Below are positions 3,870-60,853 of a DNA stretch of 64,000 nucleotides, in pieces. The notes below the pieces were generated by a model that made no database searches, was not told the DNA's origin, and was given only the letters and a program-made list of their open reading frames with translations. Source of the DNA: Candidatus Poribacteria bacterium (GTDB taxonomy: Bacteria; Poribacteria; WGA-4E; WGA-3G); the NCBI GenBank assembly GCA_022825825.1, contig JAJDWA010000002.1:1-64000 (forward strand), written 5' to 3'. The stretch's first letter is position 1, and each line of letters begins with the position of its first letter. The position numbers and the translations under genes are program-made.

Positions 3870-4013
3870 TGCGGTTGGGAAACCGCACCTAATGAAATTT
3901 GACAAACAAAATCGGTAATTGCAGTTGTAAGGGTTAGGTTGCCTAACCGAACCTGTGTTTATCCAGTCTCATATCAGAATACGCGTTTGGTATTCTGAAT
4001 TGGTTAGGAAACC
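3870..4013. repeat. Cluster of three dispersed hairpin repeats
   Basis: The 317-nt gap between the nuclease gene and folK holds no gene but three copies of the window-wide hairpin. The first is 3870-3887 (arms TGCGGTT / AACCGCA, loop GGGA). The second is a degenerate copy around 3931-3953 (GGTTAGG...CCTAACC). The third is a half-degenerate copy around 4002-4013 (GGTTAGGAAACC). AT-rich tracts with the word ATTCGATAAT or ATCGGTAATT lie between them, as in the elements near 38.46 and 54.36 kb. Confidence 0.7.
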
Positions 4014-4041
4014 GCATCTACCGGGGAGTGGGCACATATTT

Positions 4042-4569
4042 TTAGGTTTCACTGTAAGACGGTAGGTAGCATGATAAATCATGATCTTCACTTTTCACAA
4101 CAGATTTATCATCTTCAAGACGTTCAAGGGTGGTTTGGATGGTTTCATTGAAAACGGGATGCACAACATCTGGAGCGATTTCAGCTAATGGAATAAGCAC
4201 AAAATGACGGAGGTGCATTTCTGGATGGGGAATAATAAGGTCGGGAGCTTGTAAGCAGATATCTCCATAAATTAGAATATCCATGTCAATTTCTCTCGGC
4301 CCCCAACGGATACGGTGTTGTCTGCCAACATCGGTTTCAATTTGTTTTAAAGTGTGCAGCAAGGTGTGAGGGGAAAGGCACGTTTTGATAGCAACAACAC
4401 CGTTTAGAAACTTTGCCTGTGCTTCATTACCGACAGGGGCTGTTTCGTAAAGGGAGGAAATCTTTTGTAAAGTGATTTCCTCCACTTCTACTAAGACCTG
4501 GATGGCGTTTTGGATGTACGCGAATCTATCGCCGATGTTGCTGCCGAAGCCAATGTATGCTAAATGCAC
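4042..4569 (-). CDS. folK: 2-amino-4-hydroxy-6-hydroxymethyldihydropteridine pyrophosphokinase
   Basis: A 175-residue HPPK that transfers pyrophosphate from ATP to 6-hydroxymethyl-dihydropterin in folate synthesis. The N-terminus [10 protein letters not shown] and the family signature [15 protein letters not shown] (about residues 90-105) are both present, followed by [21 protein letters not shown]. Length is normal. It is the last gene of the leftward fab operon, 41 nt after fabF, an unusual partner for fatty-acid genes but likely just co-transcribed. No clear SD is seen before its ATG. Confidence 0.95.
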
Positions 4570-4610
4570 AAGGTTTTCAAATGGTAAGAACAGAACTGGG
4601 GCACTAACGA

Positions 4611-5849
4611 CTAATCGGTAAATTTCCGAATAGCGATAGAGGTGTTGTGTCCGCCGAAGCCGAATGCATTGGAAAGCGCGACTTCAATCTTTGCGTCACG
4701 ACTCTCATTTGGAACGTAATCCAAATCACACTCTTCATCCGGCACTTCGTAGTTAATAGTAGGCGGTACAAAGCCTTTTTTCATGCCGCCTATGCAGGCG
4801 ATAAGCTCCACGGCACCTGCCGCACCAAGCAGATGTCCAACCATAGACTTCGTAGAACTAATCGGAATTTTGTAGGCCCGTTCATTGAAGAGGGATTTAA
4901 TAGCGTTCGTTTCGGCAACATCACCGATCGGTGTAGAGGTACCGTGTACGTTGATATAATCAACGGTATCTATCGGCAGTTTTGCATCACTAAGCGCAAA
5001 TTCCATCGCTTTGGCTGCACCTTCACCGTTTTTAGGTGGACTCACCATATCGTGTGCATCCGAAGTCATTCCGAAACCGACAACTTCAGCGTAGATATTG
5101 GCACCACGTTTTTTGGCATTTGAAAGCGATTCAAGGATTAGAACTCCCGCGCCTTCCCCCATAACAAATCCATCGCGTTCTTTGTCGAACGGACGAGAAG
5201 CACGTTCAGGTTCATGGTTACGTTCAGACATCGCACGCATTGCACAGAACCCCGCAACAGCCAATGGTGTAATCGCTGATTCAGCACCACCTGTAAACAT
5301 CACATCCGCATATCCGTGTTGAATCAAGCGGAATGATTCACCGATAGAATGGTTGGAAGTTGCACAAGCAGTGACAGACGCAGAATTGGGCCCTCTGAGA
5401 TCAAAATGGATAGACACTTGCCCTGATGCCATGTTAATGATCATAAATGGCACGAGAAATGGACTAACGCGTCTAGGCCCCTTTTCAATTAGGGTTCTTG
5501 CATTTTCCTCAAGTACACCGATACCACCGACACCAGAACCGATTTGGACTCCTGCGCGGTAGGGGTCAACCTTAGACAGGTCCAAACCAGAATCTTCATG
5601 TGCCATCATAGCGGCAGCAAGTGCGTACTGAATGAAAAGCGGGAAACGGGATGCAGCTTTCTTATCCAGATACTTTTCCGCTTCAAAGTTTTTAACTTCA
5701 GCGGCAATCTGGGTGCGATATTCGCTTGCATCAAAAAAGGTTAAAGGTCCGATTCCGTTTTTACCGACAGCAAGCGCATCCCAATATTCTTCTTTCGTAT
5801 TGCCAATTGCATTGACAACACCAATTCCTGTAATAACTACACGCTCCAC
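4611..5849 (-). CDS. fabF: 3-oxoacyl-ACP synthase II (KAS II)
   Basis: A 412-residue condensing enzyme that extends acyl-ACP with malonyl-ACP in type II fatty-acid synthesis. The Cys-His-His triad is readable: Cys in [12 protein letters not shown] (about residue 162), His in [11 protein letters not shown] (about 303) and His in [15 protein letters not shown] (about 340). The start is GTG at 5849, with AAGGAT 8 nt upstream. It follows acpP by 86 nt in the standard acpP-fabF order, and length is typical. Confidence 0.97.
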
Positions 5850-5935
5850 GAGACCGATCCTTTTCTAAAGTAGGTGAAGAGGGCTTATGGTTTGCGGTTA
5901 CATGCCCTCAACAGGTTTTTCTGAATATGTAGAAT

Positions 5936-6169
5936 CTATACGTGCTCATCAAGGTAATCAAGGGCATCTTGGACAGTTTGTATTTTTTCAGCATCACTGT
6001 CAGGGATTTCAAGGTCAAATTCCTCTTCAAGAGCCATAACCAATTCAACGGTATCAAGCGAATCAGCTCCAAGGTCTTCCATAAATGAGGCATCAGGGGT
6101 TACGTTATTTGCGTCAATACCGAGTTGGTGTGCGATAATTTCAATAAGTCGTTCTTGGTTTGTAGCCAT
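5936..6169 (-). CDS. acpP: Acyl carrier protein
   Basis: A 77-residue acidic ACP. The phosphopantetheine attachment Ser is in [19 protein letters not shown] (about residue 37). The protein carries growing acyl chains between FabD, FabH, FabF and FabG, all encoded next to it. It lies between fabG and fabF in the conserved order. The 180-nt gap to fabG could hold an extra promoter, as is common before acpP, but I see no clear one. AGGAGA lies about 13 nt upstream of the ATG. Confidence 0.97.
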
Positions 6170-6349
6170 GTCTTTAATTTAATCTCCTATCAAAACGGAC
6201 GGATACATCAACAACAGGATCCGCTCCTAAGTTTAAAATATCTAAAGTTAATTTGTAGGGTAAGTTTGATATTCTTACCTGTCCCTACGGTAAGCCAATA
6301 TTAAGAAAACAAAGTTTGCTGTCTATTGACAGAATTAGAAATATATGAG

Positions 6350-7114
6350 TTACATCACCATGCCGCCGTCAACCTGCAAGGTTTGGCCTGTGATATAACG
6401 TGCGGCATTAGATGCCAAAAAGCAGACAAGGTCTGCAACATCTTCCGGGGTGCCAAAATTCTGTAATGGAATAAGTTCAAGTGCTTTTTTCTGAAACTCT
6501 TCAGGTATTGCTGCTGTCATGTCGGTTGTAATAAATCCAGGGGCAATAGCGTTTACAGTGATGCCGCGTGTCCCAACCTCTTTCGCAGTCGTTTTTGTTA
6601 GACCTATGATGCCAGCTTTCGCTGCGGCATAACTTGCTTGTCCGGGATTTCCCATTAAACCGATAACTGACGATATGTTAATAATGCGCCCACTCTTCTG
6701 ACGGACCATAGGACGAAGAACAGCACGGGTGCAATACATCGTTCCTGTAAGATTTGTCTGTAACACCGCCTCCCAATCATCGTCTTTGAGACGCATCAGC
6801 AACATATCACGTGTGATTCCAGCGTTATTGACAAGGATATCAATTTGCGAAAACTGTTCAAGTGTTGCTTCAACAAGCGTTTCAACATCTTCCTTTTTGG
6901 AAATATCGGCAGCTATTGCATGTGTGTTATAGCCTTTGTCTTTCAACGCAGTAGCGGTTTGGGAGACACTTTCAGTAGAACGCGAGCAGATAACGACGTT
7001 TGCACCAACTTCACATAATCTGTGGGCAATTGCTGCGCCGATACCGCGCGACGCACCTGTTACAATCGCCGTTTTTCCATTCAGCATATCCTCTGTAAAA
7101 ACACGCTGTTCCAT
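6350..7114 (-). CDS. fabG: 3-oxoacyl-ACP reductase
   Basis: A 254-residue short-chain dehydrogenase reducing beta-ketoacyl-ACP with NADPH. It shows the Rossmann glycine motif TGASRGIG, NNAG at about residue 97, the catalytic Ser in INISSVIG, and Tyr-x3-Lys in SYAAAKAG. The C-terminus NAIAPGFITTDM...GQTLQVDGGMVM is characteristic of FabG. The ATG directly abuts the fabD stop (TAA ATG), so the two are coupled. The first nine residues precede the usual N-terminus, so an internal ATG (MLNGKTAIV) remains possible. Confidence 0.97.
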   Translation of the reverse strand: MEQRVFTEDMLNGKTAIVTGASRGIGAAIAHRLCEVGANVVICSRSTESVSQTATALKDKGYNTHAIAADISKKEDVETLVEATLEQFSQIDILVNNAGITRDMLLMRLKDDDWEAVLQTNLTGTMYCTRAVLRPMVRQKSGRIINISSVIGLMGNPGQASYAAAKAGIIGLTKTTAKEVGTRGITVNAIAPGFITTDMTAAIPEEFQKKALELIPLQNFGTPEDVADLVCFLASNAARYITGQTLQVDGGMVM

Positions 7115-8053
7115 TTATTCACCGTTTCCATATTTATCTGTCACAAGTGAAAGTGTTTCAACATCTTCAACGTTCAAGGCAGAAGATTCGGGCAACGTTC
7201 GTTTTACCAAACCAGATAAAACCTTTCCCGGGCCTACTTCAACAAAATCTGTGATTCCACTTTTTTTAATCGTGTATAACGTTTTTTCCCATTGAACAGG
7301 TTCGGTTATCTGTTGAAAGAGTAGGTGTTTGATATTTTCTGTATCTGTTGCAAACTCGCCTGTTACGTTCATCGTTATATTAATTTGCGGTGGACAGAAC
7401 TTTACCGAGTCGAGAACAACCTGAAACTTTTGTTGTGCTGATTCCATCAGTGGCGAATGAAAAGCACCACTGACTGGTAAGGAGCGACACCTTCTCGCGC
7501 CAATTATATCAGCTGCAAGGGCTACGACCTGATTGACAGCATCAACTTCTCCTGAAATTACCAATTGTCCTGGGCAGTTGTAATTGGCGATCTTCACCAC
7601 ACCATCAACCTTTTCACAAAAGTGTTCAAGCTGCTCTGCATCCATTCCGAGGAGCGCTGCCATCGTACCGTTCTGCTCTTCACCAGCTTCCGCCATAAAC
7701 TGCGCACGGGCACTCACCAATCTTAACGCGTCCGCAAACTCAAGAACGCCAGACGTTACAAGTGCGGAATACTCTCCTAAACTGTGACCTGCTACAACCT
7801 GTGGCACAATTCCCAATTGTGTTAGTACTCTTAAAGTAGCGACGCTGCACGTTAAAATAGCGAGTTGTGTGTTTTCTGTCTGCTTTAATTCTGCTTCTGG
7901 TCCCTCAAAACAGAGTTGGCTTAATGGTCTTTCTAATAAATTATCTGCTTCATCAAAGACGTCTTTGGCAATTGGATAGGTCCCTGCCAATTCAACTCCC
8001 ATTCCAACCTTCTGTGAACCCTGTCCTGGAAAAATAAAGGTAATTTGTGTCAT
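7115..8053 (-). CDS. fabD: Malonyl-CoA:ACP transacylase
   Basis: A 312-residue acyltransferase that loads malonate onto ACP. The N-terminus FIFPGQGSQKVGMG, the nucleophile elbow GHSLGEYSAL (Ser about residue 91) and the His in SGAFHSPLM (about 200) are all present, as is the Gln/Arg-bearing region near VSARAQFM. Length is normal. It abuts fabH on one side and fabG on the other with no gap, in the conserved fabH-fabD-fabG order. Confidence 0.97.
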   Translation of the reverse strand: MTQITFIFPGQGSQKVGMGVELAGTYPIAKDVFDEADNLLERPLSQLCFEGPEAELKQTENTQLAILTCSVATLRVLTQLGIVPQVVAGHSLGEYSALVTSGVLEFADALRLVSARAQFMAEAGEEQNGTMAALLGMDAEQLEHFCEKVDGVVKIANYNCPGQLVISGEVDAVNQVVALAADIIGARRCRSLPVSGAFHSPLMESAQQKFQVVLDSVKFCPPQINITMNVTGEFATDTENIKHLLFQQITEPVQWEKTLYTIKKSGITDFVEVGPGKVLSGLVKRTLPESSALNVEDVETLSLVTDKYGNGE

Positions 8054-9043
8054 TTACAACCGTAAAAGCGTACTTCCCCATGTCAAGCCAGCACCGAAAG
8101 TTACGAGCAATATCAGGTCACCTGGTTTGGCGCGTCCATCTTGGATCGCTTCGTCTAATGCGATGATTACCGTTGCAGCAGAAGTATTGCCGTATTTGTC
8201 TACGTTTATGTATACCTTTTCTCGTGGCACGCCAAGCCTATCGCCGACCGCTTCAATAATGCGCAAGTTCGCTTGATGGGGTATTAACAAGTCAACATCT
8301 TCAACGCTGAGATTTGCTTTGCTTAGGGCGCGTTGTGCTGCTTCTGGCATGAGACGCACCCCAAGTTTGAAAACTTCGCGCCCATTCATCTGAATTTTAT
8401 CAAGTTTTTGATCAATTGCCTCTGATGTTACCGGCATCCTGGAACCACCAGCGGGTATGCCGAGTAGGTCAATGTCAGCATAATCACCGTCAGACCCAAT
8501 GTAAGAGGCGAGGATCCCTTTCGGTTCTTCAGTTGCTTGGACAACGGCAGCACCAGCACCATCTCCAAAAAGGACACATGTGTTTCTATCATTCCAATCA
8601 ACGATATTGTTAAAAACTTCGCCACCGACAACAAGTATAGTATCATATTGCTCAGATATAATCAAGCCGTTTGCTAAATCAAGCCCATATAAGAATCCTG
8701 CACATGCTGCGGATATATCCATCGCACAAGCGTTTTTCGCACCGATCCCTTTCTGCACATAACAAGCAGTTGATGGAAAAAATGTGTCGGGTGTAACAGT
8801 AGCGACGAGAATCATTTCGATTTCGAGTGGGTCGATTTGCGCTTTTTTAATAGCTAATCGTGCTGCTTGCGCGCTGAGATCTGAAGTGGCGATATCGTCT
8901 TCGGCGATTCGTCTCTCAACAATGCCTGTGCGTTGGCGAATCCATTCGTCGCTGGTATCCACCATTTTTTCGAGATCAAAATTGGTTAAAACGGTTTCAG
9001 GTAGATAAGAACCTGTCCCTGTGATTGCTGCATATCGGTCCAT
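8054..9043 (-). CDS. fabH: 3-oxoacyl-ACP synthase III
   Basis: A 329-residue initiating condensing enzyme joining acetyl-CoA and malonyl-ACP. The triad is visible: Cys in SAACAGFLYGL (about 113), His in IPHQANLRI (about 253) and Asn in YGNTSAA (about 283). The ATG is preceded by AAAGGAT. It follows rpmF by 85 nt; in many bacteria plsX would lie between these two genes but it is absent here. Confidence 0.97.
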   Translation of the reverse strand: MDRYAAITGTGSYLPETVLTNFDLEKMVDTSDEWIRQRTGIVERRIAEDDIATSDLSAQAARLAIKKAQIDPLEIEMILVATVTPDTFFPSTACYVQKGIGAKNACAMDISAACAGFLYGLDLANGLIISEQYDTILVVGGEVFNNIVDWNDRNTCVLFGDGAGAAVVQATEEPKGILASYIGSDGDYADIDLLGIPAGGSRMPVTSEAIDQKLDKIQMNGREVFKLGVRLMPEAAQRALSKANLSVEDVDLLIPHQANLRIIEAVGDRLGVPREKVYINVDKYGNTSAATVIIALDEAIQDGRAKPGDLILLVTFGAGLTWGSTLLRL

Positions 9044-9128
9044 GCTAAAGAATCCTTTTAAGCCGATTTAGAAGAATCAACACAAATGTATGAATTTAAT
9101 CGGCGAAAATTGAAAGGTGGCGTCTTAT

Positions 9129-9317
9129 CTACAGTTGTTCTTCCGTAGACTTTAGGACTGTTCTCCCTTTATAGTGCCCACAATGCGTGCAGACTCGGTG
9201 TGAAACCATCATTCCCCCACAATATGAGCAATCTGTGATAACTTGGCTCCGGAGTGCATGATGACTTCTCCGCATTCTTTTTTTTGATTTTGATGTTTTA
9301 CGTTTTGGATGTGCCAT
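9129..9317 (-). CDS. rpmF: 50S ribosomal protein bL32
   Basis: A 62-residue basic ribosomal protein. The N-terminus AHPKRKTSKSKKRMRRSHHA and the zinc-ribbon Cys pairs CSYC and CTHC (about residues 30-47) identify a Zn-binding (C+) bL32. Its start overlaps the end of yceD by 20 nt, the usual yceD-rpmF coupling. Confidence 0.96.
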   Translation of the reverse strand: MAHPKRKTSKSKKRMRRSHHALRSQVITDCSYCGGMMVSHRVCTHCGHYKGRTVLKSTEEQL

Positions 9318-9906
9318 CTTTAGAAATTATCTCCTTACGGTTTTTCGATTTAGATTTGTTTTCCGATTTCGCTGTCTCTAACAACTGTGGTAGCACTGCA
9401 AAAGGTGAATTTACACTGGGTGTTTCAGATTCAATTTCATCTGTATTTTGACAAGGACAATGTTCCTTATTTAGATTTATACCGCACTCATAGCATAAAC
9501 CTTCACAGGTCTGTGAGCAGAGGGGCCAAACTGGTATCTGAATTACCAATGCTTGTCGGGCATCTTCAGAGATGTCAAACGTTTCACCATCATAGTAACG
9601 TTCTCCATCTTCAATCTCTCCGGGATTGTTAGTTGGTGTGAATTGCAGTTCAAAAGTTGCTGTGATGTCCTCTTCAAAAGGTTCAAGGCACTTACCGCAT
9701 TGCATTTCAACATCCGTGAATATCTCAGCTTTGACGTAAATATCATCTTCGCTGTGACGGAGTAGTTGAACGGTGCCCCGCACTGGATTGATAAATCGGA
9801 CATCCTCAAGATCTAATTCAAGCTGCGAAGTCGGGATTTCTACTTCATGATTATTGAAGACCCCGTCTTGAATGTATCTTACGTCAAAAACCAACGTGTC
9901 TTTCAT
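9298..9906 (-). CDS. yceD: YceD / DUF177 family protein
   Basis: A 202-residue DUF177 protein. In bacteria and plants the family is linked to 23S rRNA accumulation and almost always lies before rpmF. The conserved block CGKCLEPFEEDI is at about residues 70-80, with further Cys pairs CSQTCEGLCYECG and CPCQ near 130-150. The C-terminal tail after the last Cys is Ser/Lys-rich and may vary. It lies 17 nt downstream of hom, so the amino-acid gene and the fab operon may share a transcript. Confidence 0.9.
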   Translation of the reverse strand: MKDTLVFDVRYIQDGVFNNHEVEIPTSQLELDLEDVRFINPVRGTVQLLRHSEDDIYVKAEIFTDVEMQCGKCLEPFEEDITATFELQFTPTNNPGEIEDGERYYDGETFDISEDARQALVIQIPVWPLCSQTCEGLCYECGINLNKEHCPCQNTDEIESETPSVNSPFAVLPQLLETAKSENKSKSKNRKEIISKDGTSKT

Positions 9907-9923
9907 TGTTTTGTCTGGTGGAC

Positions 9924-11246
9924 CTAAAAGGCTACTTCTTCTTCAATTCTAATAAGTTTAGCATCACCTTTGACAACTTCAAGTGTGTAAATTTGTTCAA
10001 GCGCGGTTTTCATATTTTTTTCTCGCGCCTTATGTGTTAACATCATGAGTGAAACTGTATCGGTCCCGTGAGGCTCTTTTTGAATGACTGAGGCAATACT
10101 GATGTTATGGTTTCCTAATATGTTTCCTATACTTGCTAAAACTCCCGGCCGATCAATAACAACAAAACGGAGGTAGTAGCGTGTCTCAATGTCGTCAATA
10201 GAACAGACAGTAATTTCATTCTGCGAATTCGCAAGCCATGCTTGAGAGATTGGTGAACTTACGCCCCACTGGATAGATTTTGCAGCATCAATAATATCTG
10301 CTACAACGGCACTGGCAGTAGGCATTTCGCCTGCCCCCTGTCCGTAAAATAGCGTTGGCCCAACAGCCGATCCGATAACGCACACAGCATTGAATGCCCC
10401 GCCAACATTTGCTAATAAACTCCGCTCTGGCAGAAGTGTGGGATGTACGCGCGCTTCTACGCGATTGTCATCGGTTAATTTTGCAATGGCGAGCAGCTTG
10501 ATTACATAACCGAGTTCATGTGTATACTGAATCTCTTTCTGAGAAATGTCTGTGATACCTTCAACATGAAATTGGTCAACTGAGAGATTCACGCCGTAGG
10601 CAAGCGCGATGAGAAGTGTCAGCTTTTGTGCAGCATCAGTTCCATCAATATCAAGTGTCGGGTCGGCTTCAGCGTAACCTTTTTCCTGAGCATCTGTGAG
10701 CACATCGGCAAAATCAACACCATGTTCATTCATTTCTGTCAGCATATAGTTGCAAGTGCCGTTAACAATGCCATAAATGGATTGAATTTGGTTAGCAGTG
10801 AAACTTTCTTGGAGGGTTTTAATAATTGGGATGCCCCCCGCAGTGCTTGCCTCAAAATTAAGGCTTACCTGATGTTTTTGCGCTAACTGGAATAACTCAC
10901 TGCCATGTTCTGCTAAGAGCGCTTTGTTTGCTGTTACAACGTGCTTACCGTTTTGGATTGCACGGGTGATGAGCGAATGTGCCTCTGAAACACCACCGAT
11001 GAGCTCAACGACAATATCAATTTCGGGGTTATCAACAACTTCAGCGGGATCAGTCGTTAGACAGTCCGTAGGAAGTTCCACTCCTTCACGTGAAGCAGGA
11101 AGTGTCCGTTTCACCACTTTTTTTACGTATAATTGGATGCCACTATTTTGGGATACGAGTGTATTCTGATTTATCAGAATCTTGGAAACACCGGTACCGA
11201 CTGTTCCCCATCCCAAAATGCCTACATTAATACACGATTTATCCAC
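9924..11246 (-). CDS. hom: Homoserine dehydrogenase
   Basis: A 440-residue NAD(P)-dependent enzyme converting aspartate semialdehyde to homoserine, on the Thr/Met pathway. It has the Rossmann motif GILGWGTVGTGV, the signature GTCNYMLTEM, the catalytic region AYGVNLSVDQF, and a C-terminal ACT domain (RPGVLASIGNILGNHNISIA) implying feedback control. The open frame extends upstream into the tRNA gene, where it reads [14 protein letters not shown], a tRNA shadow. I therefore start at GTG 11246, with GAGG about 11 nt upstream. Confidence 0.95.
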   Translation of the reverse strand: MDKSCINVGILGWGTVGTGVSKILINQNTLVSQNSGIQLYVKKVVKRTLPASREGVELPTDCLTTDPAEVVDNPEIDIVVELIGGVSEAHSLITRAIQNGKHVVTANKALLAEHGSELFQLAQKHQVSLNFEASTAGGIPIIKTLQESFTANQIQSIYGIVNGTCNYMLTEMNEHGVDFADVLTDAQEKGYAEADPTLDIDGTDAAQKLTLLIALAYGVNLSVDQFHVEGITDISQKEIQYTHELGYVIKLLAIAKLTDDNRVEARVHPTLLPERSLLANVGGAFNAVCVIGSAVGPTLFYGQGAGEMPTASAVVADIIDAAKSIQWGVSSPISQAWLANSQNEITVCSIDDIETRYYLRFVVIDRPGVLASIGNILGNHNISIASVIQKEPHGTDTVSLMMLTHKAREKNMKTALEQIYTLEVVKGDAKLIRIEEEVAF

Positions 11247-11332
11247 GACTACAACTGCCTCTTTTCTAATGATCTTATTAACTGAAACTGGGCAAGCGAA
11301 CGGTATATCAATCCGCTTCAACACCCATAAAA

Positions 11333-11406
11333 TCGGGGCGACTGGATTCGAACCAGCGACCTCTTGAACCCCATTCAAGCGCGCTTCCGGGCTGCGCCAC
11401 GCCCCG
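11333..11406 (-). tRNA. tRNA-Pro (anticodon GGG)
   Basis: A full 74-nt cloverleaf reads on the minus strand. The acceptor arms are CGGGGCG / CGCCCCG. The D arm is GCGC...GCGC with loop AGCCCGGAA. The anticodon stem CTTGA / TCAAG has loop ATGGGGT, giving GGG. The variable loop is AGGTC and the T arm is GCTGG-TTCGAAT-CCAGT. The discriminator base is A and the 3' CCA is not encoded. It lies 86 nt upstream of hom on the same strand. Confidence 0.97.
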
Positions 11407-11501
11407 TTTTTAAATTTAATTACCCAATTATAGTATCACAAATTAGTGGAAAAGTCAAGAAAAATTGTTTTTAGCAAAATATAAAATACCCATACATTTT
11501 T

Positions 11502-11764: not shown

Positions 11765-11792
11765 TTACGAGTCAAAGAAGAGTCAAATGGTT

Positions 11793-12827
11793 TTAGCGAG
11801 GCGGTAAATTTCCTGTCCATTCGCCAGCGTCATTAGAAACTCCCACAAACCCGCCATCGGGACCGGCACCTATGCGAGTAACGCGTATACCTGCATCGTT
11901 CCAGCTTTGCACAAGGCCTCCATATAGAGCAGCGTCTATGCGAATAACGCGTATACCTGCACCGTTAAAAACATCTATACTCCCGCCAAAAGAACGATCA
12001 CCAAGACCTTTAACATACATGCTCACAGCGCGTTCGCCTTTATTATTTAAGATATTCACAACACCGTTCCCATATCTATTAGCACCCATGATAGTAACGG
12101 GTTCCCCTGTGTTGTTAGCGGTTTCAACAGTACCGCCATATTCATAAACACCCATGGCGACAATAGACTCACCATCGTTGTTATAGGCTTTCACAACACC
12201 ACCATATCCATTAAAACCTATGTCAACAAGACTTTTGCCTTCGTTGCTCAGGGTTCCCATTATTCCGCCTTTACCGTCAGTAGCAGCCATAAGAGCAACG
12301 ATTTTACCTGCGTTGTTATGGGTTCGGATTGTGCCGCCTTCATCAGTAGCATTTATGCCCGCAACTATTTCACCTGCGTTGTTAGCGGTTACCACACTCC
12401 CCCCATGTTTAGCAGCACCTATCGCAAGAATTGTTTGACTACCATTGAAGAATTCCATAGTTGGTGTGTTGCCAGTTGTGTGTATTATAGTACCGAGGCC
12501 ACCGTCTTTGGGATGGATTGACAACCATCCCCCCTCAAGTGAGCCAATAGCAACGTTTCTTTTACCTTCTTTGTTATTGACAAGTATAGAACCATCTCCT
12601 TCAATGTCTCCGACGGTAACAATGGTTTCACCTTCGGCATTAACAACCCTTATTTTCCGTGTCACAATTTCATCGTAGACTTGTTGTGTTGTGGATTGTG
12701 TAACCTTTTCACCTATAGCTTGAGCCTGGATATTTTCAGTATGACTCGCGCAACCGATAATATATGCGGTGAAACTGATGAGTGCACCGATTATCATAAA
12801 CAATAAACGTTCGTAAATGCGTTTCAT
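11793..12827 (-). CDS. Repeat-built lipoprotein, predicted solenoid
   Basis: A 344-residue predicted lipoprotein. After a basic start (MKRIYERLL), a hydrophobic segment ends in a lipobox-like IIGC at about residue 25. From about residue 75 to the end the chain consists of roughly 20-25-residue repeats of the type GGxVxxxNNxGExVxxMG (for example GGVVKAYNNDGESIVAMG and GGTVETANNTGEPVTIMG). This pattern suggests a beta-solenoid exposed on the cell surface. The ATG at 12827 is used because AAGGAG lies 8 nt upstream; the longer frame begins without SD inside the preceding ORF. Function is unknown. Confidence 0.75.
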   Translation of the reverse strand: MKRIYERLLFMIIGALISFTAYIIGCASHTENIQAQAIGEKVTQSTTQQVYDEIVTRKIRVVNAEGETIVTVGDIEGDGSILVNNKEGKRNVAIGSLEGGWLSIHPKDGGLGTIIHTTGNTPTMEFFNGSQTILAIGAAKHGGSVVTANNAGEIVAGINATDEGGTIRTHNNAGKIVALMAATDGKGGIMGTLSNEGKSLVDIGFNGYGGVVKAYNNDGESIVAMGVYEYGGTVETANNTGEPVTIMGANRYGNGVVNILNNKGERAVSMYVKGLGDRSFGGSIDVFNGAGIRVIRIDAALYGGLVQSWNDAGIRVTRIGAGPDGGFVGVSNDAGEWTGNLPPR

Positions 12828-12841
12828 TTGGGATTCTCCTT

Positions 12842-13039: not shown

Positions 13040-13079
13040 GAAACAGTGAAGTTGTCAAGGTAAATATTAATAAAAAGGT

Positions 13080-14370: not shown

Positions 14371-14416
14371 GTATATGGTGAATTATAAAAACAAATAGAC
14401 ACTTTCTTCCCCGGTA

Positions 14417-14438
14417 GGCGAGGTTTCCTAACCTCGCC
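14417..14438 (+). repeat. Dispersed hairpin repeat, GGCGAGG-stem type
   Basis: Perfect 9-bp arms GGCGAGGTT (14417-14425) and AACCTCGCC (14430-14438) around loop TCCT, preceded by CCCCGGTA. It is the same element as at 54398 and 40953 but with two compensatory stem changes. Confidence 0.85.
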
Positions 14439-14491
14439 GATGCAGAGTGTCCAAATAATTCTAAAATCTACCATAATTCCAGCGTTTTGCG

Positions 14492-18670: not shown

Positions 18671-18698
18671 AAATACCATTATTATTTTGTTCGTGGTA

Positions 18699-18820
18699 GG
18701 TTCGGTTTCCCAACCGAACCGGGTTTATCCCAGCAAAGGTAGGCGGATTTTGTGTTTGACACGGTGCGGTTAGGAAACCGCACCTACCGTTTCCAAAATT
18801 GCTTATACCGAACTCACGTT
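18699..18820 (+). repeat. Two hairpin repeats plus a conserved 19-mer
   Basis: The 175-nt gap before the EF-G gene holds two hairpins and one shared word. Copy 1 has arms GGTTCGGTT / AACCGAACC with loop TCCC (18699-18720). Copy 2 is inverted, arms GGTGCGGTT / AACCGCACC with loop AGGA (18763-18784). The word CTTATACCGAACTCACGTT at 18802-18820 is identical but for one base to 60835-60853 and inverted relative to 60594-60612, so this is part of a larger repeat family. Confidence 0.8.
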
Positions 18821-18845
18821 ATAGTTACTTTTTCAAAGGAAATAG

Positions 18846-38412: not shown

Positions 38413-38448
38413 CCTTTATAGGTGCGGTTTGAAACCGCGCCTATAAAG
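38413..38448 (+). repeat. Long hairpin repeat after the paralogous pair
   Basis: Arms CTTTATAGGTGCGGTTT and the near complement starting AAACCGCGCC...TATAAAG (about 38413-38448), with only one G-T-type irregularity and a very short loop. Downstream 38449-38512 has the word ACCGAATTACC shared with the other repeats. Between two converging genes it could also serve as a bidirectional terminator. Confidence 0.65.
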
Positions 38449-38512
38449 GCTAAGGAAACCGAATTACCAATTTATCGGTATTAGTAAAACCTCATCAAAA
38501 CTTTTTTTGGCA

Positions 38513-40833: not shown

Positions 40834-40952
40834 TACCAAATTAATGGGATTTATCCTCTTCGCCGAACATTAGATGCGGTTTCCTAATCAATGCAGAGTT
40901 CCATACGCGTTTTCTGCTATAGGTATCAATTTAGTGAACTACCACCACGGTA

Positions 40953-40974
40953 GGTGCGGTTTCCTAACCGCATC
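40953..40974 (+). repeat. Dispersed hairpin repeat before larE
   Basis: Arms GGTGCGGTT (40953-40961) and AACCGCATC (40966-40974) around TCCT, one G-T pair. A half copy is at 40873-40890 (GATGCGGTTTCCTAATCA). Both lie in the 190-nt gap between def and larE. Confidence 0.8.
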
Positions 40975-50847: not shown

Positions 50848-50866
50848 GATAAGGAGGCAAACTGCT

Positions 50867-52510: not shown

Positions 52511-52549
52511 ACTTTCCATAAGTTTTGAACATGCCAACCGAATGGAACA

Positions 52550-53524: not shown

Positions 53525-53542
53525 AAATTTATAGGAGGAAAA

Positions 53543-54286: not shown

Positions 54287-54334
54287 GGTTCCTCAACCAG
54301 GGCATTTATTACAACCTAAGTTGCTACTTATGTA

Positions 54335-54473
54335 GCACAATCTATATGAAGATTAATTTATTAATTCGGTAATATTTATTTTTCCCAGGCCCCGGTAGGT
54401 GCGGTTTCCTAACCGCACCAGATATGATTACCGAATTACCGAAATATTTTCTTAATCTTCATATAGATTGTGC
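54335..54473. repeat. 139-bp inverted-repeat element with the hairpin at its centre
   Basis: Perfect 22-bp inverted ends (54335-54356 and 54452-54473, arm beginning GCACAATCTATATGAAGATT) enclose the GGTGCGGTT/TCCT/AACCGCACC hairpin (54398-54419) and the inverted words TAATTCGGTAAT / ATTACCGAATTA. Beyond it GTAGCAACTT (54571-54580) mirrors AAGTTGCTAC (54318-54327), a possible outer arm. No gene is seen in 54287-54600. Confidence 0.85.
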
Positions 54474-54633
54474 ATATTAGGCCGCAAACTGACAGTTTGT
54501 TGGACAATATTTCACCTATAACGAACTGTTCCCTATTAAAAATGACGTTTGTGTGTCTAAAATCTTATAGGTAGCAACTTGTATTATATAATCTTCAAAA
54601 CTACGTAAGTCCTGAAAATATAGAAATTTTCCT

Positions 54634-54676
54634 TGACATTAGTTAGATATTAATATATAATTTAGGTAAGCCTAAA
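54634..54676 (+). promoter_or_regulatory. Promoter with overlapping DtxR-type operator
   Basis: TTGACA at 54634-54639, 17-nt spacer and TATAAT at 54657-54662 form a consensus promoter. Immediately downstream TTAGG-TAAG-CCTAA (54663-54676) is an inverted repeat of the DtxR/IdeR/MntR kind placed from -7 to +6. A second, weaker repeat CAGGT...ACCTG lies near 54723-54740. It is expected to be repressed by the metal-loaded regulator encoded next. Confidence 0.75.
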
Positions 54677-54804
54677 ATAATTTTGCAACGTTTATAACAA
54701 TTTTGAGATATGTTACCTAATTCAGGTAGGGTTAAACCTGCCATATACCGCAGGAGATGGGAAAATTACACGCATTGTGTGTTCCTTGCGGATTGGAAAG
54801 ACTA

Positions 54805-55467
54805 ATGCTTACACAAGCGGCTGAGGACTACCTCAAGTCAATCTATAAGTTACAAGAAAAGGGTGGTAAAGTTTCGACCGGTATTCTGGCAGAATATCTT
54901 GATGTTAAACCGGCGTCTGCAACAGGAATGATAAAAAAACTGAAATCAATGAATCTTGTGAGTCATGAACGGTATCAAGGTGTTACGCTTACGGACGCAG
55001 GGAAAGTTATTGCGCTTGAAGTCATCCGACACCATCGTCTGTTAGAGCTTTATCTTTTTAAAGCACTCGGTATACCGTGGGATGGGGTGCATGAGGAAGC
55101 AGAAAAGTTAGAGCATGTGATTTCAGAAGACGTGGAGGCGCGAATGGATGAGTTTCTCGGTTATCCGACTGCTGATCCACACGGTTCACCTATACCAGAT
55201 AAAAATGGTGTTGTGCCGGAAACAGTGTCTATGCCGATGACATCTCTGCAGAACGGACAGTCCTGCGTTGTTGCTGAAGTTAGTGACAGCGATTCAGCGT
55301 TGCTTCGGCATCTGGGAAGTTTTAATCTTTACCCCGGCACAGCGTTTCAAGTTATTGAAGTCGCTCCATTTGAAGGCCCCTTCACTATTGATATTGCTGG
55401 GCAGCAAGCGGTAATTGGGCGTGAGGTTGCGAAAAATATATTCGTTAGTAATGTGCAAGAAACATAA
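54805..55467 (+). CDS. DtxR/MntR family metal-dependent repressor
   Basis: A 220-residue regulator. The winged helix is at about residues 5-65 (EDYLKSIYKLQEKGGKVSTG, VKPASATGMIKKLKSMNLVS), the metal-binding/dimer domain at about 66-140 (RHHRLLELYLFKALG, EEAEKLEHVISEDVEARMDE), and the C-terminal SH3/FeoA-like domain at about 150-220 (LRHLGSFNLYPGTAFQVIEV). ATG 54805 follows GGAAAG; the 16-codon longer frame has no support. Metal (Mn or Fe) is not predictable. Confidence 0.93.
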   Translation: MLTQAAEDYLKSIYKLQEKGGKVSTGILAEYLDVKPASATGMIKKLKSMNLVSHERYQGVTLTDAGKVIALEVIRHHRLLELYLFKALGIPWDGVHEEAEKLEHVISEDVEARMDEFLGYPTADPHGSPIPDKNGVVPETVSMPMTSLQNGQSCVVAEVSDSDSALLRHLGSFNLYPGTAFQVIEVAPFEGPFTIDIAGQQAVIGREVAKNIFVSNVQET

Positions 55468-55477
55468 GAAGGGTAAA

Positions 55478-56611
55478 ATGGAACAGCAAAAAGAAGTTAA
55501 ATTAGATGCCAAAACTATCAAGACATGGAAACATCATCTACAAGATGAAATAGATGCAAGTTTCCTCTACAGCCAATTCGCAAACCTTGAGTCTGATCCT
55601 GATCGAAAAGATATTTTACTTGAGCTTGCTGAGGTGGAAAATCGGCATGTCGCACGTTGGGAGGAAATGCTAACTTCATACGATGTCAAGATTAAGAAGC
55701 TACAACCGACTTTCAAAGCAAAGTTCTGGGCTTGGTATGCTCGTAGGTTTGGCAGTCCCTTCCCACTTGCACGGATGTTAAACGAAGAAGCGAGTGAAGT
55801 AAAAGATTATTTAACGCTCTATAAGAACAGTACATTGGTAGATGCAAAAGAGACAGCGCTTGATTTAGCAAAAGAGTCTGCAATGCATACTGAAAGTCTA
55901 CAGGAGCTCACTGGCACAAGCGATGAACCGTGGCACAAAACTAAATCTGGGGGGATGTTAGGCAATATTGTTTACGGTTTTAACGATGGATTAACAGCGA
56001 ACTTCGGTTTAGTTGCTGGTGTTATCGCTGCAACATCTGATATCTCCACAATTCTTGTGACGGGTATTGTCGGAACAGTAGCAGACTCACTCTCTATGGG
56101 TGCTTCAGGCTACCTTGCAGCAAAGAGTGAACAAGAGGTGTATGAACATGAAATTGAGGTGGAAAGAGAAGAAATTCGCCTCATGCCGGACATTGAGGAG
56201 GATGAACTCACACTGATTTATGTTACCCGAGGCGTGCCTAAGGAACAAGCACGCCTCCTTGCAAAAGAAGTGATGAGTGACCCAGATAGGGCATTGGAAG
56301 AAAAAATCCGAGCAGAACTTAAGATTGGTGAAACCCACACGACCCCATTCAAAGATGGGTGGGTTACAGGACTTGCGACTGCCATCGGCGCTTTTATACC
56401 TGTTGCTCCATTTCTTTTTACTTCTGGTGCAACAGCGATATGGATCTCTTTTACGTTTGCGATGTTTTCGCACTTTGCAGTCGGTGCCGCACGTAGCCTT
56501 TTCACTGGACGCGGCATAATTCGGAGTGGTTTTGATATGTTTGTTGTAGGTCTTGGCGTCGCAGGGGTTGGCTATCTTGTTGGTGAACTTTTAGAACACT
56601 TTTTATTTTAA
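55478..56611 (+). CDS. MbfA-type ferritin-like/VIT1 membrane protein
   Basis: A 377-residue fusion. The N-terminal rubrerythrin-like domain (about residues 10-160) has EIDASFLYSQFANLESD, ELAEVENRHVARW and KESAMHTESLQEL, which give the Glu-x2-His ligands of a diiron site. The C-terminal VIT1/CCC1 domain (about 170-377) shows DGLTANFGLVAGVIAAT and GASGYLAAKSEQEV. Such proteins export or store iron (MbfA in rhizobia). The gene is 10 nt after the regulator, implying iron/Mn control. Confidence 0.9.
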   Translation: MEQQKEVKLDAKTIKTWKHHLQDEIDASFLYSQFANLESDPDRKDILLELAEVENRHVARWEEMLTSYDVKIKKLQPTFKAKFWAWYARRFGSPFPLARMLNEEASEVKDYLTLYKNSTLVDAKETALDLAKESAMHTESLQELTGTSDEPWHKTKSGGMLGNIVYGFNDGLTANFGLVAGVIAATSDISTILVTGIVGTVADSLSMGASGYLAAKSEQEVYEHEIEVEREEIRLMPDIEEDELTLIYVTRGVPKEQARLLAKEVMSDPDRALEEKIRAELKIGETHTTPFKDGWVTGLATAIGAFIPVAPFLFTSGATAIWISFTFAMFSHFAVGAARSLFTGRGIIRSGFDMFVVGLGVAGVGYLVGELLEHFLF

Positions 56612-56632
56612 AATACTTTTGGGAATTGAATT

Positions 56633-57652
56633 ATGTTTAAAATATATCTTTCACTATCAAAAACGTTAACACGATATTTAAACGTGTTAACACTATTAAT
56701 ATATGTAATGTGTGTTTCGCTTTTTACTATTTCCATTTTGGCGAATATTGGGTGTGATTCAAAAAAGCCGCCGAGCACATCAGAGGCAGGAAAAATCCGT
56801 ATTGTTTGCACAATTGGTATGATTACGGATATTGTGAAAAACGTTGGCGGTGATCAGGTTGAAGTGGTAGGTATGATGGGGCCTGGGGTTGATCCGCACC
56901 TTTATAAACCGGCTGCTAAGGATATCCAAAGACTAAAATCAGCACATATCATCTTCTATAACGGATTACACCTCGAAGCAAAAATGGCAGAGGTGCTTGC
57001 TGATATATCAGGAGATGTCAAAACCGTTGCAGTAGCAGAGGGTGTTGACCGTACGCTGTTATTGTCACCACCAGAACTTGAAGGGCAGTCCGACCCGCAT
57101 CTATGGTTTGATGTGACACTCTGGATGAAAGCCGTCGAGATCGTTCGGGACACGCTAAGCAAATTAGATCCAGATAGCGAGACTGTGTACCGAAAAAATA
57201 CTGAACATTACCTTGCTAAACTTTCTAAACTACATCAATACGTTAAAACACAAGCAGAACGGATACCGCCTGAACAACGTGTGCTTGTGACCGCACACGA
57301 TGCATTTAACTACTTCGGAAAGGCTTATGGATTTGAAGTGCGCGGGCTACAGGGTATTAACACTGCTACAGAAGCAGGTATCGCTGATGTGCAGAAATTG
57401 GCAACCTTTATAGCAGAAAGACGTATACCTGCTATTTTTGTGGAATCTTCTGTTTCTTCACGCAGTCTTGAGGCAGTAAAAGCCGCTGTCCAATCAAAAG
57501 GATTTAATGTACAGATCGGTGGTGAACTTTTCTCTGATGCTATGGGCAATGAGGGGACACCTGAAGGCACTTATATCGGCATGGTTCGGCACAACGTTAG
57601 GACGATTGTCCAAGCGTTGACAGGAGAAACCACTTCTACAGAGGAAAACTAA
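56633..57652 (+). CDS. Metal ABC transporter substrate-binding protein (MntA/ZnuA family)
   Basis: A 339-residue lipoprotein or anchored SBP; a lipobox-like IGCDS follows the hydrophobic N-terminus at about residue 42. Metal ligands are His in GVDPHLYKP (about 88), His in SDPHLWFDV (about 155), Glu in IFVESSVSS (about 265) and Asp in LFSDAMG (about 300). The Glu/Asp pair is the pattern of Mn/Fe-type rather than strictly Zn-type cluster A-I proteins. Start SD is weak. Translated just after MbfA. Confidence 0.9.
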
Positions 57653-57654
57653 AA

Positions 57655-58398
57655 TTGCAAGCACCTGACGTAAAAGCTATTGAAGTAACCGATCTGACAG
57701 TCGCCTATCGCGAAACACCTGTGTTGTGGGACATTGACCTTGATGTGCCACCGGGTGTGCTTTTAGCTATTGTTGGTCCCAATGGTGCAGGCAAAACAAC
57801 GTTGATCAAAGCAATTTTAGGATTAGTACGTCCCGCCGCTGGTAATGTCTTAATCTATAACAAACCCTATGCGTTACAGCGAAAGATTGTTGGATATGTG
57901 CCGCAGCGGGGAAGTGTCGACTGGGATTTTCCGACAAACGTTCTTGATGTCGTCATGATGGGAAGATATGGCGCACTTGGATGGATACGGCGCCCCGGTA
58001 AGCAGGACCGCGAAATGGCGATGCATGCACTGGAAAAAGTTGGCATGGAGAAGTATACTACCCGACAGATTAGTCAACTCTCTGGTGGGCAACAACAACG
58101 TGTTTTTCTCGCTCGCGCCCTTGTTCAAGATGCCACTATATACCTGATGGATGAACCCTTTCAAGGTGTTGATGCGACTACTGAACGCGCAATCATTTCC
58201 TTACTTCAGGAACTCCGTGAAAACGGTAAAACAGTCGTCGTGGTACATCACGATCTGCAAACAGTAACAGACTATTTCGACTGGGTAACGTTATTAAACA
58301 TTCGCCGTATTGCAAGCGGTCCGGTTGATGAAACATTTACCTCTGATAATTTGCGCGAGACTTACGGCGGACGGATTGCTTTCATGAAAAACCGATGA
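57655..58398 (+). CDS. Metal ABC transporter ATP-binding protein
   Basis: A 247-residue ATPase of the MntB/ZnuC type: Walker [16 protein letters not shown] (about residues 37-51), the conserved [13 protein letters not shown], signature [15 protein letters not shown] and Walker [12 protein letters not shown]. The only candidate start is TTG at 57655, with GAGGAAAAC upstream. It follows the binding protein by 2 nt. A degenerate hairpin repeat lies between it and the first permease (58418-58440). Confidence 0.9.
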
Positions 58399-58463
58399 AA
58401 ATATTAGAGATATAGGCTTGGCGAGGCACAGAGACCTTGCCCTACAAATACTGTTGCATAATC

Positions 58464-59429
58464 ATGGATAATTTATACTTTCTAACCCGTTTTGATTATA
58501 CCTTGATAATTGTCTCTATCGGTGCTGCGCTGCTTGGTACGGTAAGCGGTGCACTTGGTACTTACGCTGTTTTACGTAGGCAGAGTCTCCTCGGCGATGC
58601 TATTTCACACGCAGCACTACCCGGCATTGCGATAGCATTTCTGCTGACAGGAAGTAAGACACCGCTGATTTTGGTGCTTGGTGCTGCAGTCGCGGGATGG
58701 TTAGGCACACTCATTATTTTAAGCATCGTGAGATTGACGCGTATCAAATATGATAGTGCTCTCGGTCTTGTGCTATCTACTTTTTTCGGGTTCGGATTAG
58801 TGTTGCTCACGTTTATACAGCGCAGTGGCAATGCTAATCAGGCAGGATTGGATGATTTTATCTTCGGGCAAGCCGCTACAATCCTAAAACGGGATGTCCT
58901 AACGATTGGCATACTCGGCGGCGTTGCGCTTATTATTATGGTTATTTTTTGGAAAGAGTTGAAACTCCTCATTTTTGATGAAGGATTCGCCGCATCTATC
59001 GGGTTGCCGACTCGCTCACTTGATATTCTACTGACCAGCCTTCTTGTTATAGCAATTGTTCTCGGCCTACAAGCAGTTGGAGCAGTGTTAATGAGTGCTA
59101 TGTTAGTTGCTCCAGCAGTTGCTGCGCGGCAGTGGACAGACAGACTCAATCTAATGGTGACCCTCGCTGCATGTTTTGGGGCATTTGCTGGCGTAAGTGG
59201 GACTATTATCAGCAGTAGCGCAACAGGGATTCCTACAGGACCAACAATTATCCTATGCGCGACAGTTGCGGTAGGATTCTCAATCGCTTTCGCACCGAAC
59301 CGCGGGTTGTTGTGGAATAGTATCAAACAACGCAGGAATAGACGTAACTTGAAGATAGCCACAAATAAATTCGTTGGTGCAACCGCAGCAGAAAACCAAA
59401 TTAAAGAAAATGATACAAGAACATCTTGA
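58464..59429 (+). CDS. Metal ABC transporter permease 1
   Basis: A 321-residue membrane protein with eight or nine helices; the family motif GDAISHAALPGIAIAFLL (about residues 40-57) and the C-terminal NRGLLWN are clear. The start is ATG 58464, with no good SD; the longer frame starts within the repeat. It forms the channel with permease 2. Confidence 0.88.
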   Translation: MDNLYFLTRFDYTLIIVSIGAALLGTVSGALGTYAVLRRQSLLGDAISHAALPGIAIAFLLTGSKTPLILVLGAAVAGWLGTLIILSIVRLTRIKYDSALGLVLSTFFGFGLVLLTFIQRSGNANQAGLDDFIFGQAATILKRDVLTIGILGGVALIIMVIFWKELKLLIFDEGFAASIGLPTRSLDILLTSLLVIAIVLGLQAVGAVLMSAMLVAPAVAARQWTDRLNLMVTLAACFGAFAGVSGTIISSSATGIPTGPTIILCATVAVGFSIAFAPNRGLLWNSIKQRRNRRNLKIATNKFVGATAAENQIKENDTRTS

Positions 59430-60519
59430 TATCTTACTGATTGCTATTGTCACAGCGTCCGCATGTGCTTTACCCGGCGTATTCTTAGTGCTACGCCGAA
59501 TGACGTTGATGAGTGATGCGATTAGTCACGCTATTCTTCCGGGCATCGTCCTTGCATTTTTTTTAACGCACAGCCTCTCGTCTCCGTTGATGATTCTTGC
59601 TGCCGCTGCGACTGGTGTACTTACTGTTGTTTTCGTTGAATTGCTACAAAAAACGAAACTTGTGAAAGAGGATGCTGCGATAGGATTAACATTCCCCGCT
59701 CTTTTTAGCATCGGTGTGATCCTGATTTCTCGATTTTCAAGCAATATTCACTTGGATATAGACGCAGTTCTCCTCGGTGAACTCGCGTACGCACCACTCA
59801 ATCGATTAGAGATTTCTGTTTACGATCTGGGTCCTGTATCTCTATATGTTATGGGTGGCATGCTTTTGTTGAATCTTGCCTTTATTATCATATTCTACAA
59901 AGAATTGAAGTTAGCAACATTTGATGTAAGTTTAGCCGCAACGTTAGGGTTTGCCCCCGCACTTATCCATTATGGATTGATGACATTGGTTTCTATGACA
60001 ACTGTAGGAGCGTTTGATGCAGTCGGTTCAATTTTAGTTGTCGCGCTTATCGCTGGTCCGCCTGCTACCGCTTATCTTATGACTGATAGTCTCACACGGA
60101 TGCTTGTTTTAAGTGTTATAATCGGATGTATGAATGCTGTAAGCGGCTATTGGCTCTCCTTTCTACTTAATGTTTCAATTGCAGGTACTATTGCGACGGT
60201 GACATTCTTTGTTTTCGGACTTATCTTTATGATTGTCCCGAATCGTGGTCTCATCTCAATTGCGCGCAGACATATCCGCCAAAAATGGGAGTTCGCGCAA
60301 ACAATGCTCGTTATTCATCTTTTCAATCACGAAGGATTGCCAGAAGCGCAAGATGAATCTGAAATAGCACATCTTCATGAACATCTCCGGTGGGAACCCA
60401 CATTTGCTACACGAGTCGTTAAATACGCTTTGAACAACCGATATGTGTCACAGCAAGCAACGCAGCTCATGTTAACAGATCGCGGACGCTCCATTGCTCA
60501 GCAAGCGCTTGTGCAATAA
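59410..60519 (+). CDS. Metal ABC transporter permease 2 with C-terminal winged-helix-like tail
   Basis: A 369-residue protein. The first 285 residues are a permease like its neighbour (DAISHAILPGIVLAFFL, PNRGLIS). The last 80 form a separate soluble part, AQTMLVIHLFNHEGLPEAQD...RVVKYALNNRYVSQQATQLM and LTDRGRSIAQQAL, with a wing-like LTDRGR ending. It overlaps permease 1 by 20 nt. A similar fusion of permease to a DtxR-type domain is known from chlamydial YtgCR; here the tail may sense metal or be regulatory. Confidence 0.85.
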   Translation: MIQEHLDILLIAIVTASACALPGVFLVLRRMTLMSDAISHAILPGIVLAFFLTHSLSSPLMILAAAATGVLTVVFVELLQKTKLVKEDAAIGLTFPALFSIGVILISRFSSNIHLDIDAVLLGELAYAPLNRLEISVYDLGPVSLYVMGGMLLLNLAFIIIFYKELKLATFDVSLAATLGFAPALIHYGLMTLVSMTTVGAFDAVGSILVVALIAGPPATAYLMTDSLTRMLVLSVIIGCMNAVSGYWLSFLLNVSIAGTIATVTFFVFGLIFMIVPNRGLISIARRHIRQKWEFAQTMLVIHLFNHEGLPEAQDESEIAHLHEHLRWEPTFATRVVKYALNNRYVSQQATQLMLTDRGRSIAQQALVQ

Positions 60520-60593
60520 CCTTCCTGCCGTGCTATGTCAGAGACATTCAATTGTCGGCTTATTATACCATATTAACTCGATTATTTTTATAT

Positions 60594-60853
60594 AACGTGA
60601 GTTCGGTATAAGGACATATAATTTTTATTGCTTTGAATTACTCTAATAATAACGGTAGGTGCGGTTTCCTAACAGCACTTTGTCCCACAAACTGTCCGAA
60701 GATTAAGAAAATAAATCGGTCCTGTGGCGAGGTTAGGAAACCTCGCCAGCAAAGGGGTACACCTGTCTCGTTTGGACAGAAAAGGACCGAATTAAAAAAT
60801 TAATCTTCGGACAGTTCGCGCTACGAAAAAATTGCTTATACCGAACTCACATT
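60594..60853. repeat. 260-bp nested inverted-repeat element
   Basis: Outer arms AACGTGAGTTCGGTATAAG (60594-60612) and its near complement (60835-60853, one mismatch). Inner arms AACTGTCCGAAGATTA (60690-60705) and its perfect complement (60801-60816). Inside lie two hairpins: 60658-60679 (GGTGCGGTT/TCCT/AACAGCACT, degenerate) and 60726-60747 (GGCGAGGTT/AGGA/AACCTCGCC, perfect). It lies 11 nt before the next start codon and fills the 60520-60864 gap. No ORF. Confidence 0.85.

Follow-up and report, generated by a model that had tools for sequence, protein, structure and literature searches.

The first 64,000 nucleotides of contig JAJDWA010000002.1 from a Candidatus Poribacteria bacterium (assembly GCA_022825825.1), referred to here as the window, contain a family of dispersed hairpins with a 9-bp stem and a 4-nt loop. 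These hairpins are very probably GTAG-type repetitive extragenic palindromic (REP) sequences, most likely substrates of REP-associated tyrosine transposases (RAYTs, or TnpA-REP), a group of HUH single-strand nucleases whose genes lie at other positions in these genomes. The assignment is based on hairpins that flank RAYT genes, on the single clade formed by these RAYTs, on stem types that partly match within it, on a high intergenic copy number and on REP-bearing units that are absent from orthologous sites. All tested defining features of GTAG REPs were observed, apart from a correspondence between copy number and RAYT presence, which is seen in some genomes only. Below, genomes (the studied one and its relatives) carry G numbers and loci carry L numbers.

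A scan of the 64-kb window for a 9-bp stem and 4-nt loop without mismatch returned exactly five perfect hairpins, starting at 14417, 18699, 18763, 54398 and 60726. The loop is TCCT (AGGA in the opposite orientation) in four of them and TCCC at 18699. With up to three mismatches allowed, 12 matches were obtained in the window and one in the reversed window; we take 11 of the 12 as real and drop the site at 1043. A GTAG head and a perfect hairpin together occupy 14414–14438 (+, GGCGAGG type), 18696–18720 (+, GGTTCGG type), 18763–18787 (−, GGTGCGG type) and 54395–54419 (+, GGTGCGG type), and the perfect hairpin at 60726–60747 (−, GGCGAGG type) has TTTGCT before the stem instead of GGTA. The other accepted sites comprise imperfect GGTGCGG-type copies at 3868–3889 (−, loop TCCC) and 60658–60679 (+, GGTA head), an imperfect copy at 3932–3953 (+, GGTTAGGTTGCCTAACCGAACC), a GGTA-headed copy whose right arm is replaced (AATTC module) at 3997–4018 (−) and a degraded copy at 40873–40894 (+). 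The GGTA-headed GGTGCGG-type copy at 40953–40974 (+), GGTGCGGTT TCCT AACCGCATC, contains one G/T pair, so its arms are not exact complements. The original prediction had described at least ten copies with a 9-bp stem and a TCCT or AGGA loop, and exactly complementary arms at 40953 and the five perfect sites. Eleven related sites do exist, but only five are perfect, one of these five has a different loop and 40953 falls short of exact complementarity. The three predicted stem types are borne out, and the genome additionally contains GGAGCGG, GGTGTGG, GGCAAGG and GGATCGG types. A search for GGNNNGGTTNNNNAACCNNNYC with one mismatch gave 18 matches over both window strands, compared with a mean of 0.39 in shuffled windows; one of them, at 12510, lacks the core and is probably a chance match. 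An inverted repeat at 38413–38449 (CCTTTATAGGTGCGGTTT / AAACCGCGCCTATAAAGG, with 1 nt between the arms) has a stem that resembles the GGTGCGG REP and no 4-nt loop.

Outside the window, the strict hairpin pattern occurs in 139 exact copies genome-wide, and the reversed control pattern occurs in none. A wider sample was assembled from 124 TCCN cores in 1.64 Mb of the same genome, chosen irrespective of the stem. GGTA precedes the stem in 88 of these 124 cores and becomes GTAG once the first stem base is added; the cores without GGTA carry TGCT, CTAT, TGAT and other tetranucleotides at this position. The copies thus show the GTAG (or GTGG) foot beside the stem that marks GTAG REPs, and they form the 20–40-bp, extragenic, high-copy palindromes expected of them, with 119 of the 124 located outside open reading frame (ORF) calls. 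The strict pattern is present in 40 of 59 genomes (the studied one and 58 relatives), all 40 within one order, and in 0 of 10 genomes related only at the class level. A scan of genome contigs for the head plus the hairpin detected at least 115 stretches, and among the matches listed, 115 of 115 loci belong to Candidatus or uncultured Poribacteria. This distribution bears on the small dispersed repeats (SDRs) of Nostoc, tiny mobile elements for which an RNA-mediated mode of movement has been proposed. Elhai and colleagues are said to have described them in 2008 as repeats of 21–27 nt with compensatory changes, often inside minitransposons. Identity of the Poribacteria hairpins with SDRs is nevertheless hardly probable at all, given the restriction of the listed matches to Poribacteria and a GTAG head and flanking RAYTs that account for the repeats without an RNA intermediate. 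On G003 contigs (e.g. C6 25998–26064), GGCGAGG-like hairpins form pairs of a minus and then a plus copy whose starts repeatedly lie 45 nt apart. Many G013 copies lie less than 100 nt from the first base of a contig, so the repeats may break assemblies.

The prediction had called for a TnpA-REP gene elsewhere in the genome, and such genes were located. The assembly contains four Y1 transposase genes, of which L031 and L032 are IS200 genes and L033 and L034 are RAYT genes. L033 (107.1 bits for NF047646; cut-off 80) is open and has GTAGGCGCGTTTTGTAAACGCGCC hairpins (GGCGCG REPs) on both sides. L034 is broken by one TAG codon, its open piece scores 91.1 bits and GGCGAGG-like hairpins surround it; no other RAYT in this genome has flanks of that kind. 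RAYTs over the NF047646 cut-off are present in 36 of the 59 genomes. Thirty loci, the best-scoring one per genome among many further matches, were fetched and their flanks were searched for a GTAG-headed hairpin with a perfect stem of at least 8 bp. Such hairpins flank 13 of the 30 RAYT loci compared with 0 of 29 PF01797 loci, the latter being best hits that were not typed one by one; the background is 21 hairpins in 391,664 bp of the studied genome. Eleven of the 13 loci have these hairpins to either side of the gene, with L226 counted as two-sided through upstream CGCTGG-headed copies; L207 and L221 have them on one side. The hairpin group studied here occurs at 10 of the 30 loci (L216, L218–L221, L224–L227 and L223, the last with a changed core, GAT..ATC). 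In the relatives, cognate RAYT genes are flanked by the same repeat. The 19 RAYT rows L209–L227 display the motifs [DN]H[VIL]H, WQ and YCYxNP, in keeping with the HUH and Y---NP motifs of RAYTs. A sequence search of the PDB with L224 retrieved IS200-type transposases (best E 2.5e-6) and, weakly, the TnpA-REP structure 4er8 (E 0.014). A second well conserved RAYT group (L199 1501–2167 and L200–L206; ∼200 bits, motif YIHYNP) spans several genera of the order, and L199 is adjoined by GTAGGTTGGGTTGAGG.. hairpins.

Stem pairing was assessed in an alignment of 35 hairpins (18 distinct). Pairing is retained in 99.4% of the cells and six of the nine pairs change on both sides, with a covariation score of 0.450 compared with 0.150 for shuffled and at most 0.078 for slid alignments. 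Most rows were obtained with a pattern that fixed the core and the outer GG/CC, so three pairs were free in most rows, and five rows are hairpins of relatives chosen for being paired. In the 124 sampled cores, all five outer pairs are Watson–Crick in 45 cores, compared with 10.6 under shuffling; four are in 36 and three or fewer in 43. Many copies preserve the structure and many others have lost it. The predicted paired changes on both arms are present, but many copies have only one changed arm, and the single-arm departures that the prediction had named as evidence against it do occur. Cores with three or fewer pairs often have a replaced right arm (AATTC or AATGC), and the copies with a replaced right arm constitute a separate family, R2, of 14 copies.

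The same hairpins could instead act on transcripts, as terminators or mRNA-stabilizing hairpins under selection at the RNA level. Their intergenic placing, strongly paired stems and covariation would suit such a role. The positional data argue otherwise. In gaps between co-directional genes, the hairpin lies on the same strand as the genes in 46 cases and on the opposite strand in 42 (P=0.75), and TTTT follows the stem in only 2 of 124 copies. Gaps between converging genes, which had been named among the locations of several copies, hold 12 of 115 placed copies compared with 10.2% expected by length and are not enriched. At its gathering thresholds, Rfam has a tRNA as its sole match in the window and recognizes none of the hairpins. 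The claim that all copies lie outside genes is nearly correct, since crude ORF calls (greedy, minimum 100 aa, covering 87.4% of the 1.64-Mb sample) exclude 119 of the 124 copies. ORF position, strand balance and scarce TTTT together argue against a terminator or a strand-specific RNA role, and neither the terminator nor the convergent-gene proposal gained support. Since the hairpins also flank RAYT genes, an RNA-level element is very improbable. Of the two possibilities first offered, an RNA hairpin or a REP processed as single-stranded DNA, the GTAG head, the RAYTs flanked by the same hairpins and the units missing at orthologous sites favor the REP.

A tree of 28 RAYTs without stops, with REP labels assigned by hand, was compared with the stem types. 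Eleven RAYTs with hairpins of the studied group or GGCGCG hairpins form one clade (support 98/97), which includes all typed RAYTs with the studied group. Three pairs with matching stems are found in the tree: L216/L226 (88/93), L221/L223 (98/95) and L224/L225 (86/70). Because the RAYTs with these hairpins form one clade and stem types follow its branches in part, the compensatory changes are in part markers of separate RAYT lineages; the paired changes represent a set of distinct stem types, associated in part with different RAYT subclades. GGTTCGG, GGTGCGG and GGCGAGG copies were also counted in 39 genomes of the family, including the studied one, with about one RAYT examined per genome. Copy number agrees with the cognate RAYT in G025, G026 and G030 (72/21/3, 52/5/3 and 38/3/7 copies of the three types in this order), whose examined RAYT has GGTTCGG REPs, and in G016, whose examined RAYT has GGCGAGG REPs and which contains 183 GGCGAGG copies compared with 6 and 12 copies of the other types.

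A number of observations weigh against the REP/RAYT assignment. Under the strict hairpin test, 17 of the 30 RAYT loci give no match; of the ten of these that were viewed, all outside L200–L206, most have imperfect GTAG or GTGG hairpins by eye and L228 has none. Of the three stem-matching pairs, L221/L223 alone is strongly supported, GGTGCGG REPs are scattered over four rows of the clade (L218–L221), and L227 (GGTTCGG) does not group with L224/L225. The studied assembly (84% complete) contains 31 GGTTCGG, 31 GGTGCGG and 27 GGCGAGG copies, and no intact RAYT having REPs of any of these types was found in it. G003 and G004, with 239 and 260 copies, the highest numbers of the 59 genomes, have no NF047646 match over the cut-off. 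Copy number and cognate RAYT disagree in G027 and G008, where the RAYTs have GGTGCGG REPs with 4-nt loops and GGTGCGG is not the commonest type. GGTTCGG copies are numerous in G020 (69), G015 (57) and G061 (56), and GGCGAGG copies in G003 (129), G004 (119) and G060 (96), with no RAYT of the respective type among those examined. Across the 59 genomes as a whole, REP number does not track the presence of a RAYT. In addition, no insertion of a bare 22-bp REP was seen; the differences at orthologous sites involve larger units and could be gains or losses.

The Poribacteria REP comprises the GTAG foot followed by the 9-bp stem and a short loop. The E. coli RAYT binds the REP hairpin in single-stranded form and cleaves at GTAG (PMC3733652, PMC6006769). 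By analogy with this enzyme, a RAYT would bind the Poribacteria hairpin as a single strand, cut at GTAG and move REPs. The larger units that carry many REPs would be moved by a separate transposase. We propose that each RAYT lineage keeps its own fully paired REP, which would explain the paired stem changes.

Larger repeated units, among them E1, E2 and E3, house over half of the sampled copies, and several of these units have terminal inverted repeats (TIRs). For 72 of the 124 copies, the left flank recurs in at least two further copies. These flanks fall into eight clusters, with E2 accounting for two of them through its two sides; the underlying table includes one contig-edge copy with an artefactual left flank. 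A test for inverted repeats around the individual copies gave 13 of 59 copies at a score of at least 15, and swapped flanks reached 7.6% because the units share ends, so family alignments were relied on instead. The window E1 frame (14374–14475, +) is a TIR element of 102 bp with TA ends and a nearly central REP. It is absent as a unit from the orthologous site in G002, G003 and G004, and BLAST pieces suggest that G017 lacks it too. Twenty-one E1 copies from five genomes (∼103 bp, ends TA..TA) align end to end between unrelated flanks, and all hold a REP or its degraded form. In 1.64 Mb, 29 frames were found by their ends alone, 24 of which end in TA..TA. A loose GGTT..AACC core test is matched by 20 of the 29, including three in which the REP is interrupted by another insert; eight hold GTAGGAG-type REPs, which usually form an inverted pair and are damaged in some cases, and one holds a degraded hairpin of the GGTT..AACC kind. 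A genus-wide frame pattern allowing 76–106 bp detected 46 frames in 6 of 18 genomes (the studied one included), all 97–105 bp long and all with a hairpin or its degraded form. A REP-free frame was thus encountered neither among the 29 nor among the 46, two partly overlapping sets; because the pattern derives from REP-bearing frames, demands exact ends and overlaps the 29, it is not an independent census. In copies at L036 19379, L042 18277, L045 19978 and L052 4289, TTGGA replaces the left REP arm, and several such copies are E1 frames broken by another palindromic insert ending in ..CATACCGTTGATTTGGA.

The E1 frames have the attributes of TA-ended miniature inverted-repeat transposable elements (MITEs): TIRs, TA at both ends, presence or absence as a whole and no gene. 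The hairpins might consequently be no more than the center of ordinary MITEs that a TA-specific transposase mobilizes, with RAYTs now irrelevant and the REP a fossil passenger. The whole-unit absence of E1 and its TA ends, the hairpin or degraded form in all 21 aligned copies and 46 genus-wide frames, and the lack of an over-cut-off RAYT in the two most copy-rich genomes, G003 and G004, are compatible with that explanation. However, the REP occurs in all eight left-flank clusters, one frame carries two kinds of REP, the same hairpins flank RAYT genes and the stems are paired above the shuffled level. We regard the passenger explanation as possible but doubtful. What moves the frames was not found, and the 1.64 Mb searched (about one third of the genome) contains no transposase ORF between frame-type TIRs. 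As a more tentative and rather improbable proposal, the REP may be an obligate, exchangeable central module of the TA-ended frame. The frames would then be two-enzyme composites, in which a RAYT would handle the apex hairpin and a different transposase the ends, and REP heads would be the joints at which left and right halves are swapped. This proposal draws on the lack of REP-free frames and on the finding that one and the same frame can hold a lone GGCGAGG-like REP or, instead, GTAGGAG REPs that are usually arranged as an inverted pair; for half-swapping at REP heads, it draws on window positions 18684–18824 compared with the G004 orthologue and on L276.

The second unit, E2 (18695–18821, +), comprises two inverted REPs with their heads outward, and the orthologous sites in G017, G002, G012 and G010 lack it. 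At this site, G004 has the same left flank followed by an E1-like right half, so the REP head looks like the seam of a chimera in the window E2 copy, and L276 seems to be a second case. Exchange of partners was seen for the halves labelled L2 and L3 and for the R2 module. A general rule of free shuffling among left and right halves was rejected, because the 18 left ends of E1 type are joined exclusively to right ends of that type.

The third unit, E3 (54346–54462, +), is a 117-bp element with the TIR ATGAAGATTAA..TTAATCTTCAT and a REP inside. It splits another GTAG-headed hairpin, whose left arm (GTAGCACAATCTAT) lies at 54332–54345 (+) and right arm (ATAGATTGTGC) at 54463–54473 (+). The related element E4 (60696–60810, +; 115 bp) contains a GGCGAGG-type REP. 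Other hairpins host the ten E3-like units of the 1.64-Mb sample in their loops: nine of the ten are flanked by a stem of at least 8 bp, compared with 0.4% of random points and 15% of swapped flanks. Intact forms of two of the host hairpins were found in 13 and 4 copies, GTAG-headed in most of those shown. Eight of the ten units have a REP core and two do not. Directly after E3, a second dispersed unit of ∼117 bp (54464–54580) has copies in several genomes of the genus.

The Poribacteria hairpins resemble the GTAG REPs and RAYT/REPtron systems described in the relevant parts of PMC2817692, PMC3733652 and PMC6006769 in their GTAG foot, 5–13-bp stem and short loop, in their intergenic, high-copy and dimeric occurrence, and in RAYTs that are flanked by cognate REPs and change together with them. 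They differ in the YCYxNP motif of L209–L227, which is missing from Table 1 of PMC6006769, where motifs are given as consensus forms. E2 resembles the REPINs (REP doublets forming hairpins) of PMC3116915, as outlined there, in being an inverted REP pair able to form a larger hairpin, and differs in having its own terminal inverted repeat (by eye) and two stem types. REPs are known targets of insertion sequences (PMC1525189), and E3 likewise interrupts hairpin loops, with GTAG heads on at least two kinds of the host hairpins; unlike those sequences, E3 (115–117 bp) could not accommodate a transposase gene, and 8 of the 10 units found contain a REP of their own. REPs inside long palindromes are already known from cyanobacteria: in the Anabaena variabilis section of PMC3733652, GTAG-15 dimers lie inside long TATAGGA..TCCTATA palindromes, and a REP-free form was not found. 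The Poribacteria frames share the REPs within a long TA-ended palindrome and the missing REP-free form. Presence or absence of the unit as a whole and two REP kinds in one frame are known, in the material compared, for the Poribacteria side only. Poribacteria are not mentioned in PMC3733652 or PMC6006769, and among the 13 papers listed by a literature search, none links Poribacteria to RAYT or REPIN; by term match, one review contains both Poribacteria and 'repetitive extragenic palindromic'. As far as seen, the phylum Poribacteria is new for REP/RAYT, as are RAYTs with YCYxNP and a frame with two kinds of REP.

These results add a REP/RAYT system for Poribacteria, an uncultured, sponge-associated group. 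Its related RAYTs, with REPs that differ mainly at three stem base pairs, provide a natural series for the study of hairpin recognition by RAYTs. The frames raise the testable question of why REPs and long TA-ended palindromes co-occur, as previously noted in a cyanobacterium.

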